A stretch of DNA of 37,987 bases. It comes from an uncultured bacterium (GTDB lineage: Bacteria; Actinomycetota; Actinomycetes; S36-B12; CAIYMF01). The notes beneath the pieces were generated by a model. That model did not search any database and had not been told where the DNA came from. It worked only from the letters and a program-made list of their open reading frames with translations. The stretch covers positions 1-37,987 of the forward strand of contig CAIYMF010000099.1 of the NCBI GenBank assembly GCA_903927265.1, in the 5' to 3' direction. Made by a program: the position numbers and the translations under genes. Position 1 is the first letter of the stretch, and each line of letters starts with the position of its first letter. Below are positions 17,356 to 37,945 of the stretch, one piece after another.

Positions 17356-18185
17356 GAACCGAGGCCCGTCAACTGCTGCAGCAAGGTCTTCTGGCTAATG
17401 ATGATTTGCGCAGTCGCTCCCGCCCCCGCCTCGAGTGGTTCGGCGAGCGTAATTGTCATCGGAAACACTGAGGTGCCTGCCGTCAACGGAACACCGAGCC
17501 GCGCCGACTCAACCTCGGAGGGTTCAGGTGCGGCATCGATGGCGGTGACTGTTCCGGTGGTCTGAGTTTCGCCAGACGTGACGTTGACAGTCAGTCCCGG
17601 GGTAATGCGCGCTTGATCACTTTCTTGCACCGCCACGAGTACGGTCGCGGAACTTGCAGGGGGTAGCACGGTGGCGACCATGTCGCCGGGATGCACCACG
17701 CGGCCCGCAAAACCGACTTGCTGCCAGATCGTGCCGGCGATCGGAGCCGCGATGCGTACGGGGCGACCGTTCTCGTCGACTCCCTCGGCCAGTATTTGCC
17801 CCGCTGTCACCGTGTCACCTTCGGAGACCGAGGCGCTGGTGAGCACGGCGCCGGTGGGTGCCGCGGCGGTCGCCAGCCCGGGTGGGGCCACCACGCGACC
17901 GCTGACGGTAACCGACGAGGTTTGCACCACGCCGGCCGCGTACACCAAGCCGGCGACGATGAGTAAAGCGGCTGCAGCGACAGCGATCCACGCGCGTCGA
18001 GAGGTAATGGGCAGCAAGTTATCGACCTGCGTTGGCAGGTCCATCTGCTCCAGTGCCTTCGCGCGGAACGGTGAGGGCTTGCCCAGTGTCTGCGATTTGG
18101 GCTTGTCGCCCACGACGTCGAAAATTGCATCGAGCACATCTGATTGACGTCGCGAGGATTCGCGTCCTGTTCCTCGGTCAGTCAC
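17352..18185 (-). CDS. NHLM-type secretion adaptor (HlyD-like membrane fusion protein)
   Basis: A 277-residue HlyD-type adaptor: a cytoplasmic N-terminus (1-64), one membrane helix (about 65-87, AWIAVAAAALLIVAGLVYAAGVV), and an extracytoplasmic biotinyl-lipoyl-like and beta-barrel region with GDTVTAGQILAEG and the family-typical APIAGTIWQQVGFAGRVVHPGDMVATV. It would couple to the two ABC proteins encoded downstream. GTG at 18185 is used; AGGAAT lies about 6 nt upstream. It is shorter than Gram-negative HlyD, as in NHLM systems. Divergent from the GntR gene, with a 111-nt shared intergenic region. Confidence 0.87.
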   Translation of the reverse strand: MTDRGTGRESSRRQSDVLDAIFDVVGDKPKSQTLGKPSPFRAKALEQMDLPTQVDNLLPITSRRAWIAVAAAALLIVAGLVYAAGVVQTSSVTVSGRVVAPPGLATAAAPTGAVLTSASVSEGDTVTAGQILAEGVDENGRPVRIAAPIAGTIWQQVGFAGRVVHPGDMVATVLPPASSATVLVAVQESDQARITPGLTVNVTSGETQTTGTVTAIDAAPEPSEVESARLGVPLTAGTSVFPMTITLAEPLEAGAGATAQIIISQKTLLQQLTGLGS

Positions 18186-23805: not shown

Positions 23806-23817
23806 TCTGAAACCCTG

Positions 23818-24786
23818 ATGCGCTCGATCTGGAGCAGGCTGCTCGTCTTACTGGCGATGATCTTTGCTGTCGTCACGTTCAACTTCTTTCTGTTCCACAT
23901 CATCCCGGGCGATCCCATCCTGCTCATTCGGCGATCGCAGAAACTCAGCCCCGAACAGGTTCAGCAACTGCGCATCGACTACGGGCTTGATGGGTCGTTG
24001 CTCGAGCAGTACTGGCGCTACCTGAGCAATCTGCTGCACGGCGACTTGGGGTACTCGTTCAGTCTCAAGGAGCCAGTCGCTGGCGTACTCGGACATGCAC
24101 TCTTGAACACCATCATTTTGCTCACGGTGTCAACGACCATTGTGGTGGCGGTGGGCATTCTCATTGGCGTTTTCGCCGGTGCCCGGCAGGGACGCAAGTC
24201 CGACTCGAGCACCGTGGTCGGTTCACTGGTGCTGTGGAGTCTGCCCACGTTCTGGGTAGGAATTCTGCTGGTCTTCACCTTCAGTGCGTGGTTTCGAGTA
24301 CTTCCCACATCGGGGATCACCACGCCTAATGCCGTGTACGCCAACTCGGCGGTGTATTGGTCAGATGTCGGACGGCATTTGGTGTTGCCCACGATCACGT
24401 TGGTGATCGTCGATATTGCCTTCTTCATCATCATCACGCGCACCTCACTTGTTGAGGCCATGTCTGAGGACTACATGCTCACCGCTCGCGGTAAGGGTTT
24501 GTCGCAGCGGCGGATGGTGTGGCAGCACGCCTTCCGTAACGCGCTCCTTCCGGTACTCACGGCGTCGGTGCTTTACATCAGCGCGCTGGTCGCAGGTGCC
24601 ATTCAGGTAGAAGTGGTGTTCTCGTGGCCCGGAATGGGCCTGCTGACCTACAACTCGGTCCTTGCGCGCGACTATCCGATGCTCGAGGCGTGCTTCCTCA
24701 TCACCGCCATCGCGGTTCTGTTTGCCAACTTCATGGCCGACATCGTCTATCGCTTAGTCGATCCTCGGGTGGGAGCGTCGTCGTGA
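23818..24786 (+). CDS. Dipeptide-type ABC transporter permease (DppB-like)
   Basis: A 322-residue inner-membrane permease of the DppB/OppB type. It has an N-terminal helix (about 8-28), the periplasmic region LLIRRSQKLSPEQVQQLRIDYGLDGSLLEQYWRYL typical of the family, five further helices, and the EAA coupling loop EAMSEDYMLTARGKGLSQRRMVWQHAFRNALLPV. It pairs with the DppC-like permease and two ATPases encoded downstream. The 12-nt gap after the binding-protein gene and the 4-nt overlap with the next gene show one operon. Confidence 0.92.
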   Translation: MRSIWSRLLVLLAMIFAVVTFNFFLFHIIPGDPILLIRRSQKLSPEQVQQLRIDYGLDGSLLEQYWRYLSNLLHGDLGYSFSLKEPVAGVLGHALLNTIILLTVSTTIVVAVGILIGVFAGARQGRKSDSSTVVGSLVLWSLPTFWVGILLVFTFSAWFRVLPTSGITTPNAVYANSAVYWSDVGRHLVLPTITLVIVDIAFFIIITRTSLVEAMSEDYMLTARGKGLSQRRMVWQHAFRNALLPVLTASVLYISALVAGAIQVEVVFSWPGMGLLTYNSVLARDYPMLEACFLITAIAVLFANFMADIVYRLVDPRVGASS

Positions 24787-25682
24787 GCGCCGATACGGGA
24801 GTGCCCGAGCAGGAAGCAGCCACGTCGCGTACGTCGTTGGTACGTAAGGTGTGGAACGACCGTATGGGTCGGGTCGGCATCATCCTGCTCGTCGTCATTG
24901 TGGCGGTGGCCGTCGTCGGCCCGATTCTGTTTCCGTTCAACCCTGCCGAGGTCGGGTCGAGTGCGGCGTCGATTCTCAAGCCTCCGTCAGGTGCTCATTG
25001 GCTCGGAACCGATGAACTCGGCCGCGATGTGCTCAGCCAGTTCATTACCGGCGCTCGTATCTCGCTGTTCGTCGGAATTATGGCGACAGTGATCTCGACC
25101 ATCATCGGTGCTGGAATCGGCATCATCTCCGGTTACTACCGAGGGCCGACCGACACCTCGCTGATGGGCTTCACCGACTTCTTCCTCGTGGTGCCGGCGT
25201 TGCCGCTGATGATCGTGCTCGGCGCGATCTTCGGACAGAGCCTGGGCATCATCATCATTGTCATTGGTGTGCTGAGTTGGGCTCGCACTGCGCGCATCGT
25301 TCGTTCGCAAACTCTGTCGTTGCGTGAACGTCAGTTCATTCCGCGTGCTCGATCACTGGGTGCTTCGAACTGGCGCATCATCCGCACCAACATCGCCCCG
25401 CACCTCTTGCCGCTCATCGTTGCCAACACGGTGTTGGTGGTTGCTGGCTGCATCCTCGCCGAGGCGACATTGAGCTTCATCGGCCTCGGAGACCCCAACC
25501 GCATCTCCTGGGGTTCGATGCTGCACTTCGCGTTTGCGTCCGGGGCCATCGGACGCGGTGCGTGGTGGTACTTCCTGCCTCCGGGCCTCGGCATTCTGTT
25601 CGTGGTGTTGGCTTTCACGTTGATTGGTCATGCGCTCGAGCGCATCACCAACCCACGACTCAAGGGACGTGACCAGTCATGA
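24783..25682 (+). CDS. Dipeptide-type ABC transporter permease (DppC-like)
   Basis: A 299-residue DppC/OppC permease with an N-terminal helix (about 32-54), the conserved [24 protein letters not shown] segment, and the EAA loop region [38 protein letters not shown] chose GTG at 24783, which overlaps the preceding stop by 4 nt; the longer frame from 24624 lies inside the DppB gene. It forms the translocation pore with the DppB-like subunit. Confidence 0.92.
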
Positions 25683-26671
25683 GCCTGTTGGAGATTCGCG
25701 ATCTGTCGGTCACCTATCGAGGCGCTCACGGTGATGTGGTGGCCGTTGACGGAGTCGATTTCACTATCGAACGTGGTGAGTTCGTGGGGCTGGCAGGTGA
25801 GTCGGGGTGCGGTAAGACCACGATGGCGATGGCGATTCCGCAATTGCTGCCATCGTCGGCTGGAATTAGTCGTGGCTCCGTCCTGCTTGATGGTCTTGAC
25901 CTCGCCACACTTGATGAAGATGGTCTGCGCGATGTGCGCTGGAAGCGAGTCTCGGTCATCTTCCAGGGCGCGCTCAACGCACTCAATCCGGTGAAGACCG
26001 TCGGGTGGCAAATCGCTGAACCCATTCGCGTGCACGAACCCGATGTCAGTAACAAGGTCGCCGACGAGCGAGCGGCCGACCTACTTGAGTCAGTCGGAAT
26101 TCCGGCGCGACGTGCAGGAGATTACCCGTATCAATTCAGCGGTGGAATGCGTCAGCGCGTGATGATTGCGATGGCCTTGGCGTGCGAGCCTGAGTTGGTC
26201 ATCGCGGATGAGCCCATCACTGCACTCGACGTGATGACTCAAGCGCAGATTCTCAGCCTTCTGCGCGAACTGTGCGACAACCTGGGCCTGTCGATGTTGC
26301 TGATCTCCCATGACCTCTCGGTACTGGCTGACACCTGCGATCGCGTGGCCGTGATGTACGCCGGACGCGTGGTCGAAAGTGGTGCCGCGCGCGATGTGCT
26401 CGCCTCCGAACACGTCAGTGTGGGCGCCGCTCATCCTTACACGCGCCGTTTGCTGCGCGCGTACCCCGACATCACCCGCGAGCGAACCTTTATCGACGGA
26501 ATTCCGGGGCAGCCGCCCGACCTCGTGCATCCGCCAACGGGTTGTCGATTCCATGAGCGGTGCGACGTTGCGATCGAACGCTGCGCTGTTGACCAGCCGC
26601 TGCTGCAGGAATGCGGTCCCGGTCATCTCGCAGCATGTCACCTGCTCGATCAGCAGGGAGGTGCGCGATGA
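25679..26671 (+). CDS. Dipeptide-type ABC transporter ATP-binding protein (DppD-like)
   Basis: A 330-residue importer ATPase: Walker [11 protein letters not shown]-loop [11 protein letters not shown], signature FSGGMRQRV, Walker [13 protein letters not shown] and H-loop LISHDL. The C-terminal oligopeptide-transporter extension contains the clustered Cys residues (CRFHERC, AIERC, LQEC, AACH) typical of OppD/DppD. ATG overlaps the permease stop by 4 nt. It powers import with the DppF-like partner. Confidence 0.93.
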
Positions 26672-27660
26672 GCGAGCACCTGCTTGTAGTCGAAGACCTC
26701 GAGGTGCAGTACGAGGTGCGAACGCCTGATGGTCGTCAGGTGGCGCGCGCTGTTGATGGCGTGAATCTGCACGTTGATCGCGGCGAGACTCTCGCGCTGG
26801 TGGGCGAGTCGGGAAGCGGAAAGACCTCAACGGCGAATGCGGTCATGCGACTCGTTGAGCCAACGGGTGGCCGCATCGTATTCGAAGGGCGCGATCTCGT
26901 TGCGTTGAGTGGGCGCGAATTGCGCGCCATGCGGCCGCGCTTCCAGATGATCTTTCAAGACCCATTCGAATCACTCGACCCGCGTCGCACCGTGCTCGAC
27001 ACGGTGATTGAGCCACTGAACATCCATGGAATCGGTGCCGACCGCGCTGAGCGTGAAGCGCTGGCGTTGAAGGCTCTCGAGCGGGCTGGGCTCACGCCTC
27101 CGGCCCGCATCGGTGCGCGCTACACCCATCAACTCTCGGGAGGTCAGCGTCAGCGCGTTGCGATCGCGTCGGCGATGATTCTCGAGCCGGCACTCGTGGT
27201 CGCCGACGAGCCAGTGTCGATGCTCGATGTGTCATTACGGGCGGGGATTCTCACGTTGATGGCCGAGATGCGCGACCGTCTGGGTGCGGGCTATCTGTTC
27301 ATCACGCACGACCTGTCGCTCGCCTGGATGTTCGCCGATCGCGTTGCCGTCATGTACCTCGGTCGCATCGTTGAAGAAGGAACGTCAGCGGAAGTCATCG
27401 ACTCACCGGCGCATCCCTATACACAAGCGCTCGTTTCGGTCATTCCGGTGCCCGATACAGGAGGTGCCCGCGAACGCATCGTGCTCACTGGCGAGTCTCC
27501 CAGCCCCCTCGATATTCCGCCCGGCTGCCGTTTTCACCCACGCTGCCCGCTGTACCGCGAACTGGGTGAACCTGAGCGTTGTCGCACCGAAGATCCTGAA
27601 CTGCTGCCATTGTTGTCATCGGGCACCGCGCGGCGCGCGGCATGCCATGAGTCCCACTGA
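26668..27660 (+). CDS. Dipeptide-type ABC transporter ATP-binding protein (DppF-like)
   Basis: A 330-residue importer ATPase with Walker [11 protein letters not shown]-loop [15 protein letters not shown], signature LSGGQRQRV, Walker [20 protein letters not shown] and H-loop FITHDLS, plus the C-terminal [19 protein letters not shown] motif of the family. ATG at 26668 overlaps the previous stop by 4 nt; the frame upstream to 26611 is inside the DppD gene. It completes the five-gene importer. Confidence 0.93.
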
Positions 27661-27675
27661 TCGGCTGGAGGAACC

Positions 27676-28833
27676 ATGCCGGCACAACGCGGGGAAGTCG
27701 TTGCACTGCTTGAAGAACTCGTACGCATTGAGTCGGTCTGCCCGTTGCTAGATACAGCGGCGTCAGGCGAGCGCGAGGTAGTTGACTTCGTGGCAGGCTG
27801 GCTTGCAGGGTCGGGGATTGAGGTTTCGGTCGAGGAGGTCAGTGAAGGTCGGCCCAACCTCATTGCTCGCCTTCGTGGAACGGGGTCTGGCCCCACTCTG
27901 TGCGTCAACGCACATCTCGACACAGCCAACGCGACGTTGTGGGCCGATCGGGCATTCGCGCCCCGTATCGACGGCGACCGCATGTATGCAGTGGGTGTCG
28001 CTGATAACAAGGCCGCGTGCGTGGCAGCGCTCATCGCCATTCGCGACCTTGCATCGGCGCGAGTGCCGCTGCAAGGAGATCTGTTAGTGGCGCTCGTAAC
28101 TGACGGATTCGGTGCGTCATTGGGCACCGAACATCTAGTGGCCAACCACGTGTTTGACGCGGCCATTGTGATTGAACCTCAAGCATTGCCCATCGTTGTC
28201 ACTGAGCATCAGGGATTTGGTTGGATCGAGATCACTGTGTACGGCCGAGCTGCACACGGCTCAACACCACAAGACGGTGTAGACGCCATCGTGCACATGG
28301 CCGAGGTCATCCGGGGGTTGCATGATCTTGACGAAAACGAGTGGCGCGCCAACCCCGACCCGCTCAATGGGCGCACGATGTTTCACACCGGAATGATTAG
28401 CGGTGGCACCGACTACAACACCTACCCCCAGTCGGTGGTTCTTGGCATTGAAGTGGGTACTCAGCCCGGTGAAACGATGGCGCACCGAGTCGCCGAGATT
28501 GAGCAGATCTTTGTCGACGTGACCGCACGATTCCCGCTGTTCCGCGGGGAGGTAACCGTGAAGCTTGATCGCGAGCCCTTCACGGGAGTCGGATTTGATT
28601 CGCTGCTCGCCGCCTTCGATACTGCGTGCCAATCGGTTATTGGAAAGCCGGCCGAACGGCAAGGACGCAATCTGTGGACCGATGCTGCGATCATGCAGGC
28701 GGCCGACATTCCTGCGATTCTCATCGGTTCTCGTGGCGGAAATCTGAGTGCACCTGACGAGTGGATCGACATTCCCGAGTTGGTCGCCTTTACCGATGTT
28801 CTCACCGCCACCGTCAGAGAGTTTCTTACATGA
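27676..28833 (+). CDS. M20-family peptidase-like protein with altered active site
   Basis: A 385-residue protein of the ArgE/DapE/aminoacylase-1 branch of M20. The first-metal ligands are present: His80 in NAHLDT, the bridging Asp110 in GVADNKA and Glu167 in VIEP. So is His194 in AAHGSTP. However, the usual DEE motif reads Asp143-Gly144-Phe145 in VTDGFGASLGTEHL, so both the catalytic Glu and the second-metal Glu are absent, and the C-terminal His ligand is Ser358 (LSAPDEW instead of AHxxDEW). The second metal site and the general base therefore appear lost, while the rest is well preserved. GGAGGAA precedes the ATG, 15 nt after the importer. It may bind rather than hydrolyse, or use a different mechanism. 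Confidence 0.85.
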   Translation: MPAQRGEVVALLEELVRIESVCPLLDTAASGEREVVDFVAGWLAGSGIEVSVEEVSEGRPNLIARLRGTGSGPTLCVNAHLDTANATLWADRAFAPRIDGDRMYAVGVADNKAACVAALIAIRDLASARVPLQGDLLVALVTDGFGASLGTEHLVANHVFDAAIVIEPQALPIVVTEHQGFGWIEITVYGRAAHGSTPQDGVDAIVHMAEVIRGLHDLDENEWRANPDPLNGRTMFHTGMISGGTDYNTYPQSVVLGIEVGTQPGETMAHRVAEIEQIFVDVTARFPLFRGEVTVKLDREPFTGVGFDSLLAAFDTACQSVIGKPAERQGRNLWTDAAIMQAADIPAILIGSRGGNLSAPDEWIDIPELVAFTDVLTATVREFLT

Positions 28834-30467
28834 AGCGAGCGGATATCGCTGCCGAACGACTCTCAGGCTTCATTGCCGAACTCATGCCGTGGTGGCCACT
28901 GCATGGTGGTGCTGTGGCATTGGTCGATCGTGACGGAACTCTCGCCCAGTTCGGATTCGGTCTTTCCGATGCCGAACGTTCGACGGTAGCCACCCCGTGG
29001 CATCTGTTTCAGATTGGCTCGATCAGCAAGACGGTGCTCGGTGTGGTGGTGCAGCAGCTCGTCGATGAAGGCGTCGTCGACCTCGATGAAGCAATGTCGG
29101 TCAGCCTGCCGTGGGTCGAAGTTGGTGGCGAGTCACCGACCTGGCGCGCACTGCTCTCGCACACTGCTGGGCTCATTCTCGGCGGTGACGGTGTTCCCGA
29201 TGACCTCGCGCAACTGTGGGCCTTGCGCGGGCTGATGCGTAGCGATGAAACACATTTCCATTACTCGAACCTCGGCTTCATGTTGCTCGGTCGCGCGTTA
29301 GAGGCGCGCACCGGCCGCACTGTCGCCGAGTTGATTGCGACTCGCGTCCTCGAGCCGCTGGGAATGAGCAGTTCAGCGGGAAGTATCGAGTGGTGGTCGC
29401 GTGAGCGCAGCGCCGTCGGGTACTGGCCTCTGCGCGATGACATTCCGTGGGCACCGGGCGATCGGTTAACCCCGGCCGCATGGTTCCGCATCGATTCGGC
29501 CGACGGGTGCGTGACCTCATCAGCTGCCGACATGGCGCGATTCGTTCGCCTGTTGTTGAGCGAGGGTGAGGTTGACGGAACTCGCGTGATGTCCGCTGAT
29601 GCGATCCAACGCATGGCGACACCCACTGCGATCGATGGCGAAGACATCGTGTCACTTGCCACTGGGCCGCGAGTCACTGGAAGTCAGTACGGACTCGGCG
29701 TCAACGTCGAAACGATCGGCGGCCATACCTGCCTTACCCACGGTGGCGGCATGGTGGGCTTCCAATCGTTCGTGTTGGCCGATCGCACTGAGGGCATCGG
29801 AGTCGTGGTGCTCACCAACGCCAACGGCTGCTATCCGGTCGCGCAAGTGATTGCGCGCGCTGCCTATCAATTGCTGGTCGATCCCGACGCGTCACTTCCT
29901 AGTGCCCGTGATGCTGTCGCGGATAGCCGTCCCGCAGCAGTAGGTGGATCCTTCGCGAGCGTCGCGGATTCATCGCTGGAGGTGAGCGTTGAAGTCGACG
30001 GCGGTGAACTGCGGCTGCGTGGGGGAGATCGGGTCGGACGTCTCACTCGGCTGTGGAACGGGCGCTACGTCACTGACCACGCCGATCTGCGCACGTTCCA
30101 CTGGGATCTATCCGACGACGGCCACACGTGGACCTACGGACCCTTGGTGCTGGGAGCGGGGATCGAATCAGGCGACCGCGCGTTGACTGAAGACGACCAC
30201 GCGATCGTCGGCGACTACCGCAGTTACTCACCGTGGTTTCCGTGGTTGCGCATCATCGCTCGCGACGGTCGTTTGCTTCTGGTTGCCCCCGGTGGCGTCG
30301 AAGCACCGTCGGATGAAGTGGAACTCGTGGCCCTCGGCGATGGGCAATGGCGCGTTGGCAGTGACGACTGGTTGCCCGAACGGCTCGAATGCGGTCCGGT
30401 CGTCGACGGAATGGCGTTATCGGTGCTGCGCGATGGGGTTCCGTACTCACGCACGATGCCCGGCTGA
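28830..30467 (+). CDS. Beta-lactamase-fold serine hydrolase
   Basis: A 545-residue protein with a class C beta-lactamase/DD-peptidase-like domain (about 20-365): nucleophile Ser64 in SISK, Tyr145-Ser-Asn147 (YSN) and a THGGGMVG motif replacing KTG. A C-terminal beta-rich extension (about 390-545) resembles those of D-aminopeptidases and esterases of this family. No signal peptide is evident, so it is probably cytoplasmic and acts on an imported ester or amide, perhaps a D-amino-acid peptide. ATG overlaps the M20 stop by 4 nt. Last gene of the catabolic operon. Confidence 0.85.
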   Translation: MKRADIAAERLSGFIAELMPWWPLHGGAVALVDRDGTLAQFGFGLSDAERSTVATPWHLFQIGSISKTVLGVVVQQLVDEGVVDLDEAMSVSLPWVEVGGESPTWRALLSHTAGLILGGDGVPDDLAQLWALRGLMRSDETHFHYSNLGFMLLGRALEARTGRTVAELIATRVLEPLGMSSSAGSIEWWSRERSAVGYWPLRDDIPWAPGDRLTPAAWFRIDSADGCVTSSAADMARFVRLLLSEGEVDGTRVMSADAIQRMATPTAIDGEDIVSLATGPRVTGSQYGLGVNVETIGGHTCLTHGGGMVGFQSFVLADRTEGIGVVVLTNANGCYPVAQVIARAAYQLLVDPDASLPSARDAVADSRPAAVGGSFASVADSSLEVSVEVDGGELRLRGGDRVGRLTRLWNGRYVTDHADLRTFHWDLSDDGHTWTYGPLVLGAGIESGDRALTEDDHAIVGDYRSYSPWFPWLRIIARDGRLLLVAPGGVEAPSDEVELVALGDGQWRVGSDDWLPERLECGPVVDGMALSVLRDGVPYSRTMPG

Positions 30468-30497: not shown

Positions 30498-32192
30498 ATG
30501 ACATCGGGTGCGGCACTGACTGCGCGTGTGACGCGTGGCCCCGAGGGCATCACGGTCGAGGCTCTTTCGGCCCCTATCCACTGTCGCCTCGATGATGGTC
30601 GGCTGTTGTTGGCGATCGCTGGGCCGCACCCCGTGGCTGCCGACGATCTCGCTCGGTGGGTCAGCCGTGGGTGTCCCGATCCCGCGCCCGTGAGGCAGGG
30701 TTTCGCGGCGTGCCTGATTGACCCCCGCAGTGGCGAAGTGACGATGGTGGCGAGTCCACGCAACGAGGTGACGATCTTCTACTCGCAGTCGAGTAGTTCG
30801 CTGTTGCTCAGTACGTACATTCGTGACCTGCTCAACCACGTGACCACCCTTCCGGCACTCAACCTCGACGAACTCGCGGGAATTGCCTCCGTCTCGGATG
30901 CCTCGCATGCGACGGTGTTCGAAGGAATTGAGCGCCTCCCGATCGGGCATCAGGCCATGTGGCGGCCAGGCTCGCAGGCATGGGTGCGCCGTTGGTTCCG
31001 ACCTCACGATGTTGAGCCCTTCGATCGTCGGCGTGATGGCGATGAGGCCGACGTGCTGCGCCAGATCATTCGTGAGGCCGTTGATGAGTCGCTTCCGATG
31101 CGTGGAGACGTCGCGGCGCACCTCTCGGGTGGGCTTGATTCAACAACTGTCGTTGCCACTGCAGCCAGCATCCTGTATCCGCAGGGGCGCACTGTGCATA
31201 CCTTGAGTCACTTGACGGCGCCCGGCGAGTGGCCCGAGTGGTTGCCGGTCGAGTCTGACGACGAGGCCAGCGTGCGCATCGTCAGTGAGCAGGTGCCCGG
31301 AATCGACGCGCATCTCATCTACAACACGGGGCAGACCCCACTCGAAGGCTTGGCATGGATGTTCGACCGCACCGGGTACCCGTTTCTGAACCCGTCGAAC
31401 AGTACGTGGATCCGCGCCTTCGACGAGCGGTCGGCGCAGCAAGGTTTGGGCCTCACTCTCACCGGAGCTCACGGCAGCATTGCGTATTCGGTCTCACGGA
31501 TGACTCAGTACCGGCGCGCGTTGATGCACGGGGATGTGCCGCTGCTCGTAGGCGATATCAAGGCCCGCCGAGCACTCGGTGATGGCGCCTCACTCATCGC
31601 TCATGACGTGCTGCTCGATCTGTCGCCAGCGTTGGTCACCGGTGTGCAACGAGCGCGCGGAACCCGTAGCGACAGCGCCCGTCGATCGCCAGTGCGTTGG
31701 AAGCCGATGCCTCGATCGGCGTGGGAAGGCGCAGTCATCAGCGACCCAGTCGCCCCCACGGTTCTGCAGTATCCGGCTCAGAGTTCATGGTTCAGTGATC
31801 CGCTGAGTGACGGTGAAGTGAGTCGACTGTTGTTTTCATTGCCCGCGAGTGCCTGGCTCGGAGACGGGCGAGACCGCGCACTTGCCAGACGGGTGATGCG
31901 CGGTCTGGTACCCGATGAGGTGCGTCTCCGCACGGCTCGAGGTATGCAGGGACTCGACGCAGCCGTCGCCGTTGCGGCGAATCAACAGCAGTATCGGGAA
32001 GCTCTCGAAAGGGTTGAAGCCTCGAGCACAGCGGCGGCACTACTTGATCTAGATTCGATCCGTGATTCGATGATCGACGGGGTTCCAACTGAAGGGCGCG
32101 AGTCGATGATGTGGCAGTTACATGAGGGTCGCACCCTCGGATTTGGGCTCTTCGTTGCGTGGTACGACGACCTCGTGGCAGCCCGCCGATGA
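30498..32192 (+). CDS. Lasso-peptide cyclase, asparagine-synthetase-like (C protein)
   Basis: A 564-residue asparagine-synthetase homologue. The N-terminal half (about 1-170) resembles a degenerate class II glutaminase domain without an N-terminal Cys. The C-terminal synthetase domain has the ATP-pyrophosphatase loop SGGLDSTT (210-217). In lasso biosynthesis such a protein activates an Asp/Glu side chain with ATP and joins it to the core N-terminus. The setting (three lasso-type precursors, RRE protein, leader peptidase, kinase) supports lasso cyclase rather than asparagine synthesis, and the missing catalytic Cys argues against glutamine use. The stop overlaps the glycosyltransferase start by 4 nt. 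Confidence is high for the family, moderate for the product being a true lasso. Confidence 0.85.
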   Translation: MTSGAALTARVTRGPEGITVEALSAPIHCRLDDGRLLLAIAGPHPVAADDLARWVSRGCPDPAPVRQGFAACLIDPRSGEVTMVASPRNEVTIFYSQSSSSLLLSTYIRDLLNHVTTLPALNLDELAGIASVSDASHATVFEGIERLPIGHQAMWRPGSQAWVRRWFRPHDVEPFDRRRDGDEADVLRQIIREAVDESLPMRGDVAAHLSGGLDSTTVVATAASILYPQGRTVHTLSHLTAPGEWPEWLPVESDDEASVRIVSEQVPGIDAHLIYNTGQTPLEGLAWMFDRTGYPFLNPSNSTWIRAFDERSAQQGLGLTLTGAHGSIAYSVSRMTQYRRALMHGDVPLLVGDIKARRALGDGASLIAHDVLLDLSPALVTGVQRARGTRSDSARRSPVRWKPMPRSAWEGAVISDPVAPTVLQYPAQSSWFSDPLSDGEVSRLLFSLPASAWLGDGRDRALARRVMRGLVPDEVRLRTARGMQGLDAAVAVAANQQQYREALERVEASSTAAALLDLDSIRDSMIDGVPTEGRESMMWQLHEGRTLGFGLFVAWYDDLVAARR

Positions 32193-33160
32193 GCACACCC
32201 ACGCCGGCCGTCTCCATCATCATTCCCATCTACAACCGCATGGAATTCGTTGGCGGAACGCTTGCGAGCATCGTGCGGCAAACATTCCAAGACTTCGAAG
32301 TCGTCATCATCGACGCCGGATCCACTGAACCCGTTCCGGTAGTCGTCAATGAGTACATTGCCGACGATCCACGATTCCGACTGATGATCAGTCCGGTACA
32401 ACTCAACTCGGCACAGGCACGCAATGCCACGCTCTCCGAGGTCAGGGCTCCGATCGTTGCGGTCATCGACAGTGATGACGTGATGGTGCCGCACCGTCTG
32501 GAGCGGCAGGTGCAGGTGCTTGCTGAACGGCCCGACATTGTCGCCGTCGGGGGTTCGATGTCGGCGGTGGATGAGCATGGACTTGGCTGGCGCAAGGGGG
32601 GCGTTACCGATACAGGTGTCGTGCCCGATACCCCGAATCGCGTGCATTGGTTGATGCCCTTTCGGGCGCCGACGCTGAGTTCGACCATCACTGTGCGCAC
32701 TGACGTCTTGCGCGCTGTCGGCGGCTTCGACGAAGACCACCCACTCTGCGACGACTACGGAATGACCTGGCGATTGACCGAGGTTGGCGGATTTCTGATG
32801 CTGCCCGAAATTATGTCGACCTATCGCATTCACTCTAAGCAGGTTTCGTCAACAACTCCTGGTCGTCAAGCGATGCAGGTGGCACTCTTACGGCGGTCCA
32901 TCATGATGAGCCGGCTGAACCGCAGCCTTGATCTCAAACTCGTCATCGCTGCAGCGGGTGGTCCGTCAGCAGACGACGAAACGTCGGCGGCGGCAGAGGC
33001 ACTCTGCAGTGAATTGCTGGCGTGGTTCATCGAACAACGACGGCCCTCGGAGGCCGATGAGCAGTGGGCGCGCCGCGATTACGACCATCGAATTCAGGTG
33101 ATTCGCAACGTGGCTTTCACTCGCTCGGAACCTGCCACCACACTCCCGCCCAGTCAATGA
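32189..33160 (+). CDS. Family 2 glycosyltransferase
   Basis: A 323-residue GT-A-fold glycosyltransferase. The N-terminal nucleotide-binding motif is SIIIPIYNRMEFVGGTLASIVRQTF, and the metal/nucleotide-sugar site is Asp94-Ser-Asp96-Asp97 in AVIDSDD. GFDEDHPLCDDYGMTWRL (about 190-207) is the acceptor-side motif. No membrane helix is predicted. ATG at 32189 overlaps the cyclase stop by 4 nt, which ties it to the RiPP cluster, so it may glycosylate the peptide. Its 3' end overlaps the convergent methyltransferase gene by 44 nt. Confidence 0.87.
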   Translation: MSTPTPAVSIIIPIYNRMEFVGGTLASIVRQTFQDFEVVIIDAGSTEPVPVVVNEYIADDPRFRLMISPVQLNSAQARNATLSEVRAPIVAVIDSDDVMVPHRLERQVQVLAERPDIVAVGGSMSAVDEHGLGWRKGGVTDTGVVPDTPNRVHWLMPFRAPTLSSTITVRTDVLRAVGGFDEDHPLCDDYGMTWRLTEVGGFLMLPEIMSTYRIHSKQVSSTTPGRQAMQVALLRRSIMMSRLNRSLDLKLVIAAAGGPSADDETSAAAEALCSELLAWFIEQRRPSEADEQWARRDYDHRIQVIRNVAFTRSEPATTLPPSQ

Positions 33161-34172
33161 TTTGCAATGGTGCGGTGATTGCGTTTTTCTCGCGGAACTC
33201 GTCGACGGCCAGTTTGCACGAATCGAGGTTGTAGTCATCGATGATGACGTAACCACCGGGGGAGACCTTGGGGTACAGATTCGTCAGCGAATCCATGGTC
33301 GACTCGTACAAGTCACCATCAAGTCGCAACAGAGCGATCTGTTCGATGGGGGCGGTGGGCAGTGACTCACTGAACCAGCCTTTGAGAAACACCACCTGGT
33401 CGTCGAGCAACTGAAGTGAATCGAAGTTGGCGCGCACGTCTTCGAGGCTCACGTTGAGCCAGCCCGCCAGGGGCGACCAGTAGTCATCGGCTGGAAAGCG
33501 AGCGAGGTCAGGCGTCGGCAGGCCTTCAAATGAGTCGGCGACCCACACCCTTCGGTCGGTCACTTGATGAGCAGCGAGGATTCCGCGCATTAAAATGGTG
33601 GCGCCACCGCGCCATACCCCGGTCTCGATAAAGTCGCCAGGCACTGCGTCAACCAGCGCCCGTTCGGCAAGGGCGCGCACGTTGTTCAACCGGAGCAGGC
33701 CAATCATGGTGAACGCTTCTTCGGGGATATCTCGACCATGAATTCGGTGACCGAGATGGAAGGGAGAAACGTAGGTCATCCCTTTCCGATTGTCACGAAT
33801 GGTGAGACCCGAAACAGTGCGGATGAGCAGGTCGAGATACAGATCGATAGCGGTCGGGGCAGCGGTGGGCTTGGCTTCGTATCGGTCGGGCTGTGGCTCG
33901 GCGTCAATGAGTCCTACTGCGGTGAGTTGGATGATGAACTCGTTGAGGTCAGTTTCAAGGGTGGAGCGATCGACTTCGAAGCGAGCCAGCAGAATGTCGA
34001 GGGCTGAGTTGGCGCTGCCGCCATCGAGTAGTGCCTGCCACATCGCAATGCCCACGCGGTCGAGTTCGATGTAATCGAACGTGCTCATGTTGACGACCAT
34101 TCCTTCATCGCCATGAACCTCAGTGACTGTGTCGCGATTGACTGCGATCAGTGTGTCAGGGGACTGGTTCAT
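33117..34172 (-). CDS. RRE (PqqD-like)-TylF-type O-methyltransferase fusion
   Basis: A 351-residue two-domain protein. Residues about 5-92 are a PqqD-like RiPP recognition element (TFDYIELDRVGIAMWQALLDG ... FEVDRSTLETDLNEFIIQL ... GLIDAE), similar in pattern to the B1 protein of this cluster. Residues about 108-351 are a TylF/MycF-type methyltransferase, with SAM motif FIETGVWRGGATI (181-193) and metal-binding acidic residues in RLDGDLYES and IIDDYN. The RRE should dock the leader and bring the peptide to the methyltransferase. I chose ATG at 34172 because GGAAGG lies 6 nt upstream; the 48 residues before it are Arg-rich shadow sequence. It is divergent from the kinase gene. TylF enzymes act on sugar hydroxyls, so the acceptor could be a sugar added by the GT2. 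Confidence 0.85.
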   Translation of the reverse strand: MNQSPDTLIAVNRDTVTEVHGDEGMVVNMSTFDYIELDRVGIAMWQALLDGGSANSALDILLARFEVDRSTLETDLNEFIIQLTAVGLIDAEPQPDRYEAKPTAAPTAIDLYLDLLIRTVSGLTIRDNRKGMTYVSPFHLGHRIHGRDIPEEAFTMIGLLRLNNVRALAERALVDAVPGDFIETGVWRGGATILMRGILAAHQVTDRRVWVADSFEGLPTPDLARFPADDYWSPLAGWLNVSLEDVRANFDSLQLLDDQVVFLKGWFSESLPTAPIEQIALLRLDGDLYESTMDSLTNLYPKVSPGGYVIIDDYNLDSCKLAVDEFREKNAITAPLQIIDWAGVWWQVPSE

Positions 34173-34194
34173 GGGCAGCCTTCCGAGGTATTGG

Positions 34195-34200
34195 CATGAT
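34195..34200 (+). promoter_or_regulatory. Candidate -10 element (CATGAT), leaderless, for the peptide kinase gene
   Basis: CATGAT ends 6 nt before the GTG at 34207. It lies between the divergent methyltransferase and kinase starts and helps choose the kinase start over GTG at 34201. Confidence 0.35.
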
Positions 34201-34206
34201 GTGGCC

Positions 34207-35274
34207 GTGGCGGTAAACAATGAAGCGACGTCGGTACGTCCTGGCGTCCACAATAATGAGGTGAGCGGCCTGCGTCGGTACCGACTCCACGGACTTACAT
34301 TGGCCACAGCACGCATCTTCTCGACGTGGCCGACCGTGACCGACGATGAGCCGACCGTGGGTGACGATGAGTGGCTTCTGACCCTCTGTCCGGGCGAAGG
34401 CCTGACACAGGCCTCGAAGCCGCACGACGATGACTATTACGCCGTATGGAATGTGGTGAAGGGCTCGGCTGAGAACCCTGAGACCGTTGCCTACCGAGTA
34501 AATCTGCCTGACGGTCAACTGGCCTCGGAGTTTGTCATTGATCTGGTGGGGCGGTCGGTCACGGTCTCGTGGGCGACCGACTGGCCCGAGACTCACGAGG
34601 GCGTCGAGTTTCTGCTCGGTAGTCGAGTTCTGCCGGTGGTCGCGCGCCTGTCGCGCGGCGGGCTGCCAGTGCACGCCACTGCCGTGGAGTTCCGAGGCCG
34701 CGCGTTGGTGATCTGCGGGGTTTCTGGAGCCGGTAAGTCAACCCTTACGGTGGCGCTGTTGGCCGCTGGTTGCAGTTTGCTTGGTGACGAGCCAGTCGTC
34801 CTCGACAGCTCGAGTGAGGGTGTCACTGCCTCGCAAAGTTCCTTACTGCTCAGGGTTCACGATGGCTCGACAGCGATGACGCAGTTGGCGCAACTCGGCC
34901 GCGAGGTCGTGGGCAGTCGCGACAAAGTCGCAGGGCTGCCCACCGCGGCCGAAGCCCTCTCGCGGGCGCCACTTCCCGTGGGCGCGATTGTGGTGTTGGG
35001 CCCCCGCAACTCCGACCTCGCGGCGGCGGAATTTGTGCCGCTGGAGGGAATCGAGGCGGTGAATGCCCTGCTCGGGCAGCGTTACAGCGCGCGAGGGCCG
35101 GTGCCTGTGCTGACGGGGGATTTTGAGAGTGCGGCGGCGGTGACAGCCCTCGTTCCAGTGCTGCGCGCCACCCTGCCCGACACAGTCGACTTACTGCCGC
35201 AGTCAGCGGCTCAATTGTTGGCCCGCGCGGGCCTTCAGACTGCTGGACAAGTGGCCTCGAATCAGGTTGGATAA
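34207..35274 (+). CDS. HPr-kinase-like peptide kinase (lasso tailoring)
   Basis: A 355-residue protein with an unrelated N-terminal half (1-150) and an HPr kinase/phosphorylase C-terminal fold: conserved His156 in LPVHATAVE, P-loop GVSGAGKST (171-179) and an acidic pair Asp194-Glu195 in LLGDEPVVL. Such truncated HprK homologues in lasso clusters (ThcoK, PadeK) phosphorylate a Ser at the peptide C-terminus using ATP. Here a Ser is conserved 3 to 5 residues from the precursor ends. No HPr protein is encoded nearby. GTG at 34207 chosen by promoter spacing; 34201 is an alternative. Precursor A1 follows after 28 nt, so it may be co-transcribed. Confidence 0.83.
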   Translation: MAVNNEATSVRPGVHNNEVSGLRRYRLHGLTLATARIFSTWPTVTDDEPTVGDDEWLLTLCPGEGLTQASKPHDDDYYAVWNVVKGSAENPETVAYRVNLPDGQLASEFVIDLVGRSVTVSWATDWPETHEGVEFLLGSRVLPVVARLSRGGLPVHATAVEFRGRALVICGVSGAGKSTLTVALLAAGCSLLGDEPVVLDSSSEGVTASQSSLLLRVHDGSTAMTQLAQLGREVVGSRDKVAGLPTAAEALSRAPLPVGAIVVLGPRNSDLAAAEFVPLEGIEAVNALLGQRYSARGPVPVLTGDFESAAAVTALVPVLRATLPDTVDLLPQSAAQLLARAGLQTAGQVASNQVG

Positions 35275-35292
35275 GGGGAAATCCCGACCACT

Positions 35293-35298
35293 GAGGAG
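35293..35298 (+). promoter_or_regulatory. Shine-Dalgarno GAGGAG of precursor A1
   Basis: All three precursor genes have the same arrangement: (N)AGGAG, exactly 4 nt, then ATGAGC. The sites are GAGGAG at 35293, AAGGAG at 35556 and TAGGAG at 35710. This fixes the starts of these short genes and shows they are strongly translated and duplicated together with their ribosome sites. Confidence 0.75.
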
Positions 35299-35302
35299 TG
35301 TC

Positions 35303-35428
35303 ATGAGCGAGCGCGAGACGTACACCAAGCCTGCCGAACCAGTTCTGGTCGGAAGTGTCGAGATTTCTGAAAACCAGTACGTGACGTCAGGTGGCGTCGA
35401 CTACACCATCTACGCAAGTCTGGCCTGA
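35303..35428 (+). CDS. Lasso-type RiPP precursor A1
   Basis: A 41-residue precursor. The leader has Tyr7, Pro10, Leu15, Gly17-Ser18 (YTKPAEPVLVGSVEISE), which fits the lasso leader pattern Y..P.....LxGS bound by B1. Counting from the GS motif in typical leaders, the core would be QYVTSGGVDYTIYASLA (residues 25-41), with Asp33 at ring position 9. If the core begins at Tyr26 the ring would be 8. The usual Thr at -2 and Gly at +1 are absent. Ser39 near the C-terminus is a possible kinase site. GAGGAG is 4 nt from the ATG. A1 is followed by a terminator hairpin. Family assignment is firm from context; the exact core is inference. Confidence 0.85.
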   Translation: MSERETYTKPAEPVLVGSVEISENQYVTSGGVDYTIYASLA

Positions 35429-35445
35429 CGTAGTCGATTTTCACG

Positions 35446-35487
35446 CACACCACGTGGTCTGATCGCTTGATCCGACCGGGTGGTGTG
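35446..35487 (+). terminator. Hairpin between precursors A1 and A2
   Basis: CACACCAC (35446-35453) pairs with GTGGTGTG (35480-35487); inside it GGTC pairs with GACC and GATC with GATC around a GCTT loop, with two mismatched positions. TTTT follows at 35493-35496. It could end or attenuate transcripts after A1, giving A1 a higher level than the downstream genes. Confidence 0.6.
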
Positions 35488-35522
35488 TGGCGTTTTGGGC
35501 ACGGAGTGAAGCCGGCATCAAG

Positions 35523-35528
35523 TAGGGT
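35523..35528 (+). promoter_or_regulatory. Candidate -10 (TAGGGT) for A2-A3-B1
   Basis: TAGGGT, a good high-GC actinobacterial -10, lies 37 nt upstream of the A2 ATG and 35 nt after the hairpin. No clear -35 is seen. It would restart transcription for A2, A3 and B1. Confidence 0.4.
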
Positions 35529-35565
35529 ATGAGTGTCAATTCCGCAATCGTGACGAAGGAGCAAC

Positions 35566-35691
35566 ATGAGCGAGCGTGAGCCGTACAGCAAGCCCGCAGA
35601 GCCGGTTCTGGTTGGTTCAGTGGGGATGTCAGAGGTTACGTATGCCGGATCAGGCACCGATTTGGGAATCTATTCCAGTCTCGTGACCTAG
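35566..35691 (+). CDS. Lasso-type RiPP precursor A2
   Basis: A 41-residue paralogue of A1. The leader is nearly identical (Tyr7, Pro10, Leu15, Gly17-Ser18) but the core differs most: TYAGSGTDLGIYSSLVT from residue 25, with Asp32 at position 8. The conserved Tyr26, the Asp and the I-Y-x-S-L block align with A1 after one gap. It lacks the GG pair of A1 and A3. Ser37 and Ser38 lie near the C-terminus. AAGGAG is 4 nt from the ATG; a candidate promoter lies upstream and A3 follows after 28 nt. A second product of the same machinery is expected. Confidence 0.85.
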   Translation: MSEREPYSKPAEPVLVGSVGMSEVTYAGSGTDLGIYSSLVT

Positions 35692-35719
35692 GTCGTGCTG
35701 ATGTTCTCGTAGGAGTGCC

Positions 35720-35851
35720 ATGAGCTCGCGTGAGCCTTACACCAAGCCTGGCGAACCGGTTGTGGTCGGAAGTGTCGAGATTTCTGAGAAGCAGTTCGTG
35801 ACGTCTGGTGGCGTCGACTTCACCATCCACGCCAGCACGGCCCCGGGCTAG
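35720..35851 (+). CDS. Lasso-type RiPP precursor A3
   Basis: A 43-residue paralogue, closest to A1. The leader has Tyr7, Pro10, Val15 in place of Leu, and Gly17-Ser18. The predicted core from residue 25 is QFVTSGGVDFTIHASTAPG, with Asp33 at position 9 and Phe26 replacing the Tyr26 of A1. The C-terminus is two residues longer and ends in Pro-Gly. Ser39 is conserved. TAGGAG is 4 nt from the ATG. B1 follows after 48 nt, so A2-A3-B1 are probably one transcript. Confidence 0.85.
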   Translation: MSSREPYTKPGEPVVVGSVEISEKQFVTSGGVDFTIHASTAPG

Positions 35852-35899
35852 TAAGCCGATTTGGTCGTCAAGTTTTCTCTCAGTCAGGTGGTTTCGTTC

Positions 35900-36169
35900 G
35901 TGTCGGTTGTGACTCGTTCACCGGGTGTGGTGACTGCCCACATTGGTGGTCAACTCGTGGCACTGAACGACAAGATGGAGTACGTGGCGCTTGACCCCAT
36001 GGGCGAGGCGATCTTCGCCCTCATCGAGCAGCCCCAATCAGTTGACGACATCGTCGCTGCCGTGACATCACGTTTCGATGTGGATGAACCCACGTGTCGG
36101 GCGGATGTCACCGAGTTCCTTGATCAACTTCAGTCGCGTCGCTTGGTGAGTCTGTCCACTGCGGTGTGA
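35900..36169 (+). CDS. PqqD-like RiPP recognition protein (lasso B1)
   Basis: An 89-residue PqqD-family protein (winged-helix RRE), the size of lasso B1 proteins. Typical features: a beta-strand N-terminus, EYVALDPMGEAIFALIEQPQSVDDIVAAV, and FDVDEPTCRADVTEFLDQLQSRRLV. It binds the precursor leader at the Y..P motif and hands it to the B2 peptidase. I chose GTG at 35900 because AGGTGG (35886-35891) is 8 nt upstream and the length then fits; TTG at 35861 and GTG at 35888 or 35909 are alternatives. Confidence 0.85.
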   Translation: MSVVTRSPGVVTAHIGGQLVALNDKMEYVALDPMGEAIFALIEQPQSVDDIVAAVTSRFDVDEPTCRADVTEFLDQLQSRRLVSLSTAV

Positions 36170-36201
36170 ACTCTGCGCTTTCCTCACCGATCACCGTTCA
36201 C

Positions 36202-36256
36202 CCCTTTCTGTGAGCAAATAGGGCCCGAATCGGGTCGTTCTCGCTCACAGAAAGGG
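36202..36256. repeat. Perfect 14-bp inverted repeat between B1 and nucleotidyltransferase genes
   Basis: CCCTTTCTGTGAGC (36202-36215) and GCTCACAGAAAGGG (36243-36256) are exact reverse complements around a 27-nt loop, which itself contains CCCG-AAT-CGGG. There is no T tract on either side. It may be a terminator lacking a T tract, a regulatory RNA structure, or a remnant of a small mobile repeat. Confidence 0.7.
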
Positions 36257-36293
36257 CATCGTCGTGTGCTGAAGCGACGGCCACGTCACCCGA

Positions 36294-36299
36294 CATAAT
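36294..36299 (+). promoter_or_regulatory. Candidate -10 element (CATAAT), leaderless, for the nucleotidyltransferase gene
   Basis: CATAAT ends exactly 6 nt before the ATG at 36306, with no ribosome site visible. The gene thus seems to have its own leaderless promoter downstream of the inverted repeat. Confidence 0.5.
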
Positions 36300-36305
36300 G
36301 AGCCC

Positions 36306-37487
36306 ATGAGCGCGCCGGCTGGGATGACGAGTGTGTCTCCTCATTTCTCCGTTGCTGACCTCGACAATCTTCGGGGGGTCCTGCGCCAGGTGATGGCCAT
36401 CGAATCCGGCGAAGAGCCTGCGCCTATCGACCTGGCGTGTGTTGATGCTGACAGGTTCGTGCAGAGTGCCTCGCGTCACCGACTGTCGGTGTGCCTGGCC
36501 CCGTACGTCGAATCGCTCAACCTTCCCGATGACGCCCGCGCGCGCATCGCACGACGAACCGCCCGCGAACAGTTAGTTGCCCTGCATTGCGCGGCCGCTC
36601 TTGCTGAGGCGGTGGGCGTGCTGACTGATGACGGCATGCGCATTCTGGCAGTGAAAGGAATTGCGCTGTCGATGCAGACGACTGGTACGGCGGCAGGACG
36701 CGGATCAGGTGACATCGATCTCTGGGTTGCAGAGCCTGACGTCGCTCGCGCGCGCGAACTGCTGGCGGGTATCGGGTACGTCGAGCCGCCTGGCGCGGTG
36801 ACAATGCCCATCTCAGGTCGAGTTGAGAACTACCGCATGTGGTCGGGCTTCGAACTCGAACTCATGCGCGGCAAGTCGCCCCTTGATCTTCATTGGTCGC
36901 TCACCACTCAGCGCGGGCTTCTTCCGACCTTCGACGACGCCTGGAATCGTCGCGAGATCGTCAACATTGCCGGACGTGATGTGCCCACGCTGTCACTCAG
37001 CGATGCGTTCACGCACACCTGCCTGCACGCGTACAAAGACGGCTGGCGATGGCTGCGCAGTCTTGTCGATGTCGATCGCCTTGCACGTCTCATTCCTGCG
37101 AGTGACTTGAAGCGACTTGCTTCGATTTCACCGATCGCACTGAGCGCGCTCATCGCTCACGACGCGACGGGGGGAGCGGCGTTGCAACCGTTGCTATCCG
37201 CCAATGATCGGGCAAGTCAGCGTGCCCGCACCACGGCAGATGCTCAGCAGCGCGCGGATGCATGGACCCTCGACGGATCGAGTGCGCGATCAGCGTGGGT
37301 GTGGCTGCATCAACAACTCGATCTTGCCAGCGGACCACGCGACATCGCGCGCACGCTGTCGTCGTACGCGCTACCTCCGACTTCATTGGGTGTTGCGGCC
37401 GATGGAACCACTCATGGTGCTGGGGCGGCGTTGATGCAGAGATTTACTGCGGTGAGTTCGCGCGTGCGAAAACCGTCGTCGCACTGA
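36306..37487 (+). CDS. Nucleotidyltransferase-fold protein (lasso-associated)
   Basis: A 393-residue protein of the uncharacterised nucleotidyltransferase family (NTP_transf_5 type). The core motif is LAVKGIALSMQ (Lys117-Gly118) followed by GRGSGDIDLWV with Asp136 and Asp138 as metal ligands. A helical C-terminal half contains HLHWSL-like LDLHWSLTTQRG and DAFTHTCLHAYKDGWRWLRSLVDVDRL. Proteins of this family occur in paeninodin-type lasso clusters beside the kinase and have been linked to adding groups to the phosphorylated peptide C-terminus; function here is inferred from that. The 3' end overlaps the convergent B2 gene by 44 nt. Confidence 0.83.
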   Translation: MSAPAGMTSVSPHFSVADLDNLRGVLRQVMAIESGEEPAPIDLACVDADRFVQSASRHRLSVCLAPYVESLNLPDDARARIARRTAREQLVALHCAAALAEAVGVLTDDGMRILAVKGIALSMQTTGTAAGRGSGDIDLWVAEPDVARARELLAGIGYVEPPGAVTMPISGRVENYRMWSGFELELMRGKSPLDLHWSLTTQRGLLPTFDDAWNRREIVNIAGRDVPTLSLSDAFTHTCLHAYKDGWRWLRSLVDVDRLARLIPASDLKRLASISPIALSALIAHDATGGAALQPLLSANDRASQRARTTADAQQRADAWTLDGSSARSAWVWLHQQLDLASGPRDIARTLSSYALPPTSLGVAADGTTHGAGAALMQRFTAVSSRVRKPSSH

Positions 37488-37932
37488 ATCCTGCGGCAGC
37501 GGGTCCACCGGTGAGCGCACCTACGCGCCCGAGTAGCCAAGCGTGCGCTGCCCACACGCCTTCCGGAGTGGGGCGTAGGCCCACGACCACCACTCCCGGC
37601 TCACCGCGGCGTGCCAGCATCACCTGGCCGGCAGCGGCTTCAGCCAGGCAGCTGGGCTTCCATGGAAGTAGGTGCGCACCGCGGGTGATCGCAATGACCA
37701 CGCGGTATTCGGCCAGACTCGCGGCTTCCGTGGTCAGTTGGTCGATCGGCTTGTCGTTCCATTCGGACGGAACCGCGCGAGCAGTTCCGAGTACGCGGGA
37801 CCAACGAGCCATCGGAACCCAACGCTGCGCGGCACTCGTGGCGGTGAGCAGTGTCATGGCCTCAACCAGCATCGCGCGTCCACGCCACCGATTGATTTCG
37901 GTCACGCGGCGCGGTCGCGAGTCGAGGGCCAT
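37444..37932 (-). CDS. Lasso leader peptidase B2 (transglutaminase-like)
   Basis: A 162-residue transglutaminase-fold protease of the lasso B2 type. The N-terminal helix-rich part (INRWRGRAMLVEAMTLLTATSAAQRWVPMARWSRVLG) and the catalytic part with Cys95 in PSCLAEAAAG and His130 in AAHAWLLG match the family. It removes the leader from the B1-bound precursor before cyclisation. ATG at 37932 is preferred over 37944 because TATGCT lies 7 nt upstream (leaderless pattern). It runs on the opposite strand to B1 and the precursors, an unusual split of B1 and B2 genes. Confidence 0.82.
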   Translation of the reverse strand: MALDSRPRRVTEINRWRGRAMLVEAMTLLTATSAAQRWVPMARWSRVLGTARAVPSEWNDKPIDQLTTEAASLAEYRVVIAITRGAHLLPWKPSCLAEAAAGQVMLARRGEPGVVVVGLRPTPEGVWAAHAWLLGRVGALTGGPAAAGFSATTVFARANSPQ

Positions 37933-37939
37933 GTCACGA

Positions 37940-37945
37940 AGCATA
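37940..37945 (-). promoter_or_regulatory. Candidate -10 element (TATGCT) for B2
   Basis: On the minus strand TATGCT lies 7 nt before the ATG at 37932; if used, the ATG at 37944 would fall inside the promoter and could not be the start. No ribosome site is visible for either ATG. Confidence 0.35.

Follow-up and report, generated by a model that had tools for sequence, protein, structure and literature searches.

A lasso-type peptide cluster with an RRE–methyltransferase fusion and a candidate exchangeable block

What does a short-peptide cluster make when a kinase and a nucleotidyltransferase (NTase) like those of phosphorylated lasso peptides stand beside a glycosyltransferase and a methyltransferase fused to an RRE? 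What the NTase does in phosphorylated lasso peptides, or in the linear peptides related to them, is not settled; with about ten genes, this cluster makes the question testable. The window analysed here (that is, the entire 37,987-nucleotide contig C99, whose end just upstream of B2 is also the end of the window) comes from a bin, G000, of 3.67 Mb in 353 contigs with 98% completeness and 1.2% contamination. We suggest, at a probability of roughly 0.6, that the locus encodes a lasso-type short-peptide family that adds sugar tailoring to the phosphorylated type known from paeninodin, pseudomycoidin and Bsf.

Gene content and its conservation

The cluster spans 30498–37944 and reads C, GT2, methyltransferase (minus strand), kinase, three precursors, B1, NTase and B2 (minus strand). 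A B2 leader peptidase, a discrete RRE (B1) and an Asn-synthetase-like C, three of the features by which a lasso cluster was tested, were all found. C, a lasso-type macrolactam synthetase of the Asn-synthase family (30498..32192, plus strand; PF00733, 7e-18), has lass_lactam_cya as its top NCBIfam match (67 bits, under the cut-off of that model) and keeps SGGLDS and a C-terminal RG-x-QG-x-D; both motifs occur in an annotated Priestia lasso cyclase, and the second is missing from two AsnB-like relatives of the same order. B1 (plus strand, ending at 36169; PF05402, 1.6e-17) matches the PDB entry TbiB1 at 1.2e-9. The transglutaminase-like leader peptidase B2 (37444..37944, minus strand) scores 52.3 bits against NF033537 (lasso_biosyn_B2; curated cut-off, 33), and its catalytic-type residues C99 and H134 are invariant across the 11 sequences aligned, two of which are annotated lasso B2 proteins.

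Among the tailoring genes, the family 2 glycosyltransferase GT2 (32189..33160, plus strand; PF00535, 1.9e-26) lies in a frame open from 32159 and probably starts at the ATG at 32189, which forms an ATGA overlap with the stop codon of C. The methyltransferase (33117..34172, minus strand) joins PF05402 (PqqD, 1e-10) and PF05711 (TylF, 1.4e-89) in a single chain; its likely start is 34172, where its ATG overlaps head to head (CATG) with that of the HPrK-like lasso kinase (34171..35274, plus strand; TIGR04352, HprK_rel_A, 3.9e-11). The NTase, an NTP_transf_5 protein of the PsmN/LppN-like type (36306..37487, plus strand; PF14907, 3.3e-35), and B2 overlap by 44 bp at their 3′ ends, as do GT2 and the methyltransferase, all of which makes for a tightly packed cluster. 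Precursors A1 (MSERETYTKPAEPVLVGSVEISENQYVTSGGVDYTIYASLA; 35303..35428), A2 (MSEREPYSKPAEPVLVGSVGMSEVTYAGSGTDLGIYSSLVT; 35566..35691) and A3 (MSSREPYTKPGEPVVVGSVEISEKQFVTSGGVDFTIHASTAPG; 35720..35851), all on the plus strand, were recognised as open reading frames each preceded by a GGAG-type ribosome-binding site (that is, a Shine–Dalgarno sequence). An Rfam search of the window gave 0 matches, and promoter and terminator scans of the window gave site counts not above those of shuffled sequence.

The first-pass annotation had described lasso core and tailoring genes here, and these are present where it put them, with family matches far beyond chance; of its B1 at 35900 the gene stands but the start is ambiguous (TTG at 35861 or a later GTG, within 35861–35906). 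The same set recurs in relatives. In G001, an uncultured actinobacterium of the same genus (isolate name LacPavin), it lies on two contig ends, each in the order of the window (C, GT2, methyltransferase, kinase and three precursors on one piece; B1, NTase and B2 on the other). G032, from another family of the order, carries C, B1, kinase, NTase, B2 (minus strand), an ABC exporter, three precursors, GT2 and methyltransferase (minus strand). The source genome itself holds a partial second set on contig C313, and GT2 belongs to the cluster in G001, C313 and G032 alike. At a more distant locus, in G030, two C genes stand with an NTase, a kinase, an exporter and B2; no precursor was recognised in that genome. 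A single-protein search of genome contigs with C returned no match, and a profile search with C returned only same-genus G001 and distant Asn-synthase relatives.

Given that identical gene content recurs in different order, the gene set is best read as one pathway, and the first-pass annotation was right to see here a RiPP cluster of the lasso type that includes kinase, NTase, GT2 and RRE-methyltransferase. The opposite orientation of B1 and B2 is likewise seen, as it is in G001 and G032; the scattered two-strand gene order is real but, being conserved in relatives, is no anomaly peculiar to this contig.

An alternative block in the same bin

The first 129 bp of contig C313 (5461 bp, five precursors) match window positions 30684–30812 without a difference, and its last 79 bp match 35890–35968 in the same way; between these edges it is about 75% identical to the window where alignable (that is, over the C-to-B1 block). 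Because the edges are identical and the interior is only about 75% so, this alternative block, which is new, points to cassette exchange between strains, with the putative exchangeable block at 30684..35968 (no strand assigned) delimited by the identical edges and the dS pattern. Between the window and G001, dS is 0.56–0.72 in the flanking genes (a PF00144 hydrolase, NTase and B2) and 1.3–1.7 in C, GT2, methyltransferase, kinase and B1; between C313 and G001 it is 0.58–0.87 in the genes on C313. As dS is thus flank-like in C313 and about double in the window block, the lineage's ordinary allele seems to be that of C313, and the window block looks introduced or anciently divergent.

We regard it as doubtful that C313 is instead a complete further cluster at another place in this genome, with no allele from another strain involved. 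In favour of that reading stand its binning in the same MAG and the occurrence of two C genes in one genome elsewhere (G030); yet G000 has a single B2 and a single close NTase, both edges of C313 match the window exactly with the contig stopping there, and the dS contrast described above also speaks against it. Bin contamination is another possible origin of C313. If C313 and the window block are alleles, the presence of two in one MAG suggests selection for product change.

Tailoring enzymes, precursors and the ring

The kinase is the weakest assignment of the cluster, with a Pfam match (PF07475, 6e-4) under the cut-off. In an alignment of nine sequences including a Priestia paeninodin-cluster kinase, H168, K189 (in the P-loop) and D206 are invariant; the second Asp of the His-Lys-Asp-Asp motif of PadeK/ThcoK is replaced by Glu in this kinase clade. 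At its Priestia paeninodin-family locus, that kinase-like protein carries the annotation aldolase. The NTase is 80% identical to that of G001 and, as is characteristic of PsmN/LppN, places its NTP_transf_5 domain beside a kinase and an RRE. PsmN reportedly adds hexose in E. coli. Lasso peptides of kinase/NTase clusters are phosphorylated, and pseudomycoidin bears hexose on phosphoserine (PMC9266682). LppN, the NTase of the linear LPP relatives, had no visible effect in B. subtilis, and the authors of that work proposed that it depends on a partner whose gene lies beyond the core cluster (PMC13381572). In the present system, GT2 and the RRE-tethered, sugar-type methyltransferase stay linked to the NTase in two families.

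NovP-type enzymes methylate sugars. The C-terminal 245 residues of the methyltransferase match NovP (1.2e-87) and MycF in the PDB, the TylF/NovP family domain was found with its metal-binding-type DGD and DDY motifs kept, and the N terminus matches the TbiB1 RRE (7.5e-9). AlphaFold models from two-row alignments had mean pLDDT values of 32 (kinase) and 36 (methyltransferase), too poor for fold searches. Among 395 genomes of the class, the source genome, G001 and G032 were the only ones with the fusion; among 396 genomes of the phylum, the source genome alone had it. Both sets are samples and no census. Among the matches listed, on plasmids (12 of 23 records) and on viral contigs (66 loci), no TylF relative covers the RRE, and no plasmid record reaches 80% of the query; none of the papers listed in a literature search links lasso peptides with TylF. 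The fusion of an RRE to a NovP/MycF-type sugar O-methyltransferase is new in the sense that the data searched hold no match outside this genome, G001 and G032, and to our knowledge it would be the first case, in a lasso pathway, of a sugar-methylating enzyme that carries a leader-reading domain of its own.

GT2 and the fusion might instead modify the peptide independently of the kinase and NTase, for example by glycosylating Tyr or Ser or by methylating a carboxylate, an alternative that we consider improbable, if not strongly so. Ser-glycosylated lasso peptides are cited in PMC13352647, and C-terminal and Asp methylation are known for lasso clusters (PMC9266682); the lasso methyltransferases described there (StspM-like and PIMT-like), however, fall outside the TylF family, and the closest solved relatives of the present enzyme methylate sugars.

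A Thr at position −2 and a Gly at core position 1 are usual, not absolute, in lasso precursors, and the acceptor Asp or Glu falls at core positions 7–9. Across 14 aligned precursors (3 from the window, 5 from C313, 3 from G001 and 3 from G032), canonical Thr(−2) and Gly1 are absent from all 14, and leader Arg, Tyr, Pro, Pro and Val, followed by Gly, Asp and a Ser at Asp+6, are invariant. An aromatic residue stands 6–7 positions ahead of the invariant Asp; a core beginning at the aromatic or one position earlier (the cleavage site being assumed) would put that Asp at position 7–9. Precursors that have neither Thr(−2) nor Gly1, yet keep an Asp and, six residues on, a Ser that never vary, are a new feature of this family. 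Two more distant precursors in G106, which share an NN-x-SG-[ST]-G stretch, adjoin a lasso-type C and B2. As the precursors are without canonical Thr(−2) and Gly1, a point absent from the first-pass annotation, lasso topology is not read off the sequence, and we consider it likely.

An unthreaded, lasso-derived RiPP whose ring is of another sort, C making another macrolactam or acting differently, is an unlikely product. In its favour, besides the precursor features, C scores far under the curated NCBIfam cyclase cut-offs, and linear relatives that have no cyclase are known (LPP, PMC13381572). Against it, the invariant Asp is placed for a 7–9-residue ring, C and B2 are both there with lasso-like motifs, and Thr(−2) is dispensable, a lasso precursor with Ile(−2) having been validated (PMC10368454).

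For the favoured lasso-type reading, neutral monoisotopic masses were predicted with the core assumed to start one residue before the aromatic. The ring-closed A1 core (QYVTSGGVDYTIYASLA) would have a mass of 1788.857, rising to 1868.823 with phosphate, 2030.876 with hexose and 2044.892 with methyl; the A2 core (TYAGSGTDLGIYSSLVT) would give 1685.815, 1765.781, 1927.834 and 1941.850, and the A3 core (QFVTSGGVDFTIHASTAPG) 1872.901, 1952.867, 2114.920 and 2128.935, in the same order.

Proposed pathway and known systems

In the pathway that we propose, the leader motif YxKPxxPVxV would be bound by B1 and by the RRE of the methyltransferase, and the HPrK-like kinase would place phosphate on a conserved Ser, the candidates being one in the ring and the invariant one of the tail at Asp+6. 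On this phosphate, NTase and GT2 may then build a sugar, which the RRE-TylF fusion would O-methylate with the leader still attached; we place methylation before leader removal because the methyltransferase carries an RRE. Cleavage by B1 and B2 close to the aromatic residue would free the core of its leader, and C would join the new N terminus to the invariant Asp, giving a 7–9-residue ring and a tail of about 8–10 residues. Export would probably proceed via an MsbA-like ABC transporter encoded on contig C6, given that the G032 cluster includes an ABC exporter and that this contig of the source genome encodes a 57% identical homologue, beside a GT2 and an NTase-like gene. The substrates, tailoring order, sugar methylation and threading are what we infer from these assignments.

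Several observations count against this pathway. The tail Ser is not C-terminal, the core start is uncertain without Thr(−2) and Gly1, the kinase has Asp-Glu in place of Asp-Asp, and no exporter adjoins the cluster in the window. Free sugar nucleotides are also possible substrates of TylF relatives, as CalS11 shows (PMC4760980).

We tentatively extend the proposal, at a lower level of belief than the family assignment, to a leader-guided sugar O-methyltransferase that finishes a phosphate-linked methylated sugar; GT2 and the methyltransferase would then be the missing partners of the NTase, and the precursor-plus-tailoring block would be exchanged between strains as one allele, the NTase and B2 staying put. 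That GT2 and the methyltransferase are bystanders from polysaccharide synthesis is very improbable: such RiPP clusters are frequently found in polysaccharide loci (PMC13381572), but the methyltransferase bears a lasso-type RRE and both genes accompany the cluster in two families, in different gene orders and inside the exchanged block, and on the grounds of RRE and co-inheritance we rejected this role for the methyltransferase.

The general type of this cluster is already known. Lasso clusters with kinase and NTase had been named as known in the first-pass annotation, correctly, since both enzymes are typical of paeninodin-like (including pseudomycoidin) and Bsf clusters (PMC13381572, PMC10368454). 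Its claim that the whole combination is unknown holds for the RRE-TylF fusion, which was not found elsewhere, but not for kinase, NTase and GT2 together: lasso clusters of Butyrivibrio fibrisolvens combine a nucleotidyltransferase, an HPr kinase and a GT2 with the lasso core genes (PMC7533575), although these belong to Bacillota and RRE-TylF is not reported for them.

Pseudomycoidin and paeninodin (Bacillota) share A, B1, B2, C and an HPrK-like kinase with the window, pseudomycoidin also a PsmN-type NTase, and B2 and the kinase of the Priestia paeninodin-family locus align directly with the window proteins. Unlike the window, these systems are without RRE-TylF and have the C-terminal Ser phosphorylated; their precursors carry Thr(−2). 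Paeninodin RREs prefer a Trp-type leader motif (PMC13381572). Bsf of Bradymonas sediminis shares A, B1, B2, C, kinase, NTase and a leader that is not of the Thr(−2) type; its phosphorylated residue, ring Ser3, counts among the likenesses as well. It differs in a Gly1 core and a linked ABC transporter, and is without GT2 or methyltransferase (PMC10368454). LPP shares the Tyr-type YxxP leader, the RRE, the HPrK kinase and the NTase, but an archaeal-type signal peptidase replaces B2 and C is missing (PMC13381572); with both B2 and C present, and no signal-peptidase-like open reading frame among the cluster genes, we rejected an LPP reading of the window. Finally, the NovP/MycF/TylF sugar O-methyltransferases share the catalytic domain and acidic motifs of the fusion, whereas the solved enzymes are without an RRE and take as substrates the deoxysugars of small-molecule antibiotics.

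Candidate export and tailoring loci of the source genome

A candidate exporter for the window peptides is encoded on another contig of the source genome (C6, 152-3428), where an MsbA-like protein that shares 57% identity with the exporter located within the cluster of G032, a genome from another family of the order, is adjoined by a GT2 (glycosyltransferase family 2) and by a separate, weak NTP_transf_5 (nucleotidyltransferase) protein. Within the window, the reverse strand at 12284-18185 encodes a HlyD-like adaptor and two ABC proteins for bacteriocin export of the NHLP type (TIGR03797, 537 bits, and TIGR03796, 776 bits; both below the family cut-offs), and neither an NHLP precursor nor a modifying enzyme was recognised near these genes. 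The source genome also carries a second set of kinase, PqqD (RRE-type domain), GT2 and NTP_transf_5 (contig C11, 98-3490); C and B2 are absent from this 8.7 kb contig, and the set possibly represents a linear phosphorylated-peptide pathway.

Surroundings and hairpins of the window cluster

Immediately upstream of C (22072-30467) lie an oligopeptide ABC importer, an M20 deacylase and a PF00144 serine hydrolase, a group that could serve peptide uptake or turnover. The same-genus genome G001 retains the adjacency of importer and hydrolase, and the deacylase is apparently missing at its corresponding locus. Inside the cluster, the gap separating the A1 and A2 precursor genes contains a strong hairpin (35443-35495) with TTTT after it. 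This hairpin is a possible attenuator, and it is not among the sites returned by a terminator scan of the window. A second hairpin, between B1 and the nucleotidyltransferase gene (36202-36256; 14-bp perfect outer stem, z -3.95), represents a small dispersed repeat, because approximately five similar copies occur at other sites of the genome.

Precursor-like frames in relatives

The G032 locus holds a fourth precursor-like frame (L041, 11587-11764), which is interrupted by a frameshift or sequencing error. In G106, two more distant precursor-like ORFs near a lasso-type C and B2 (L044, 13174-15229) share identical ends, NNISGTGDVDATYSGFPYGYS.
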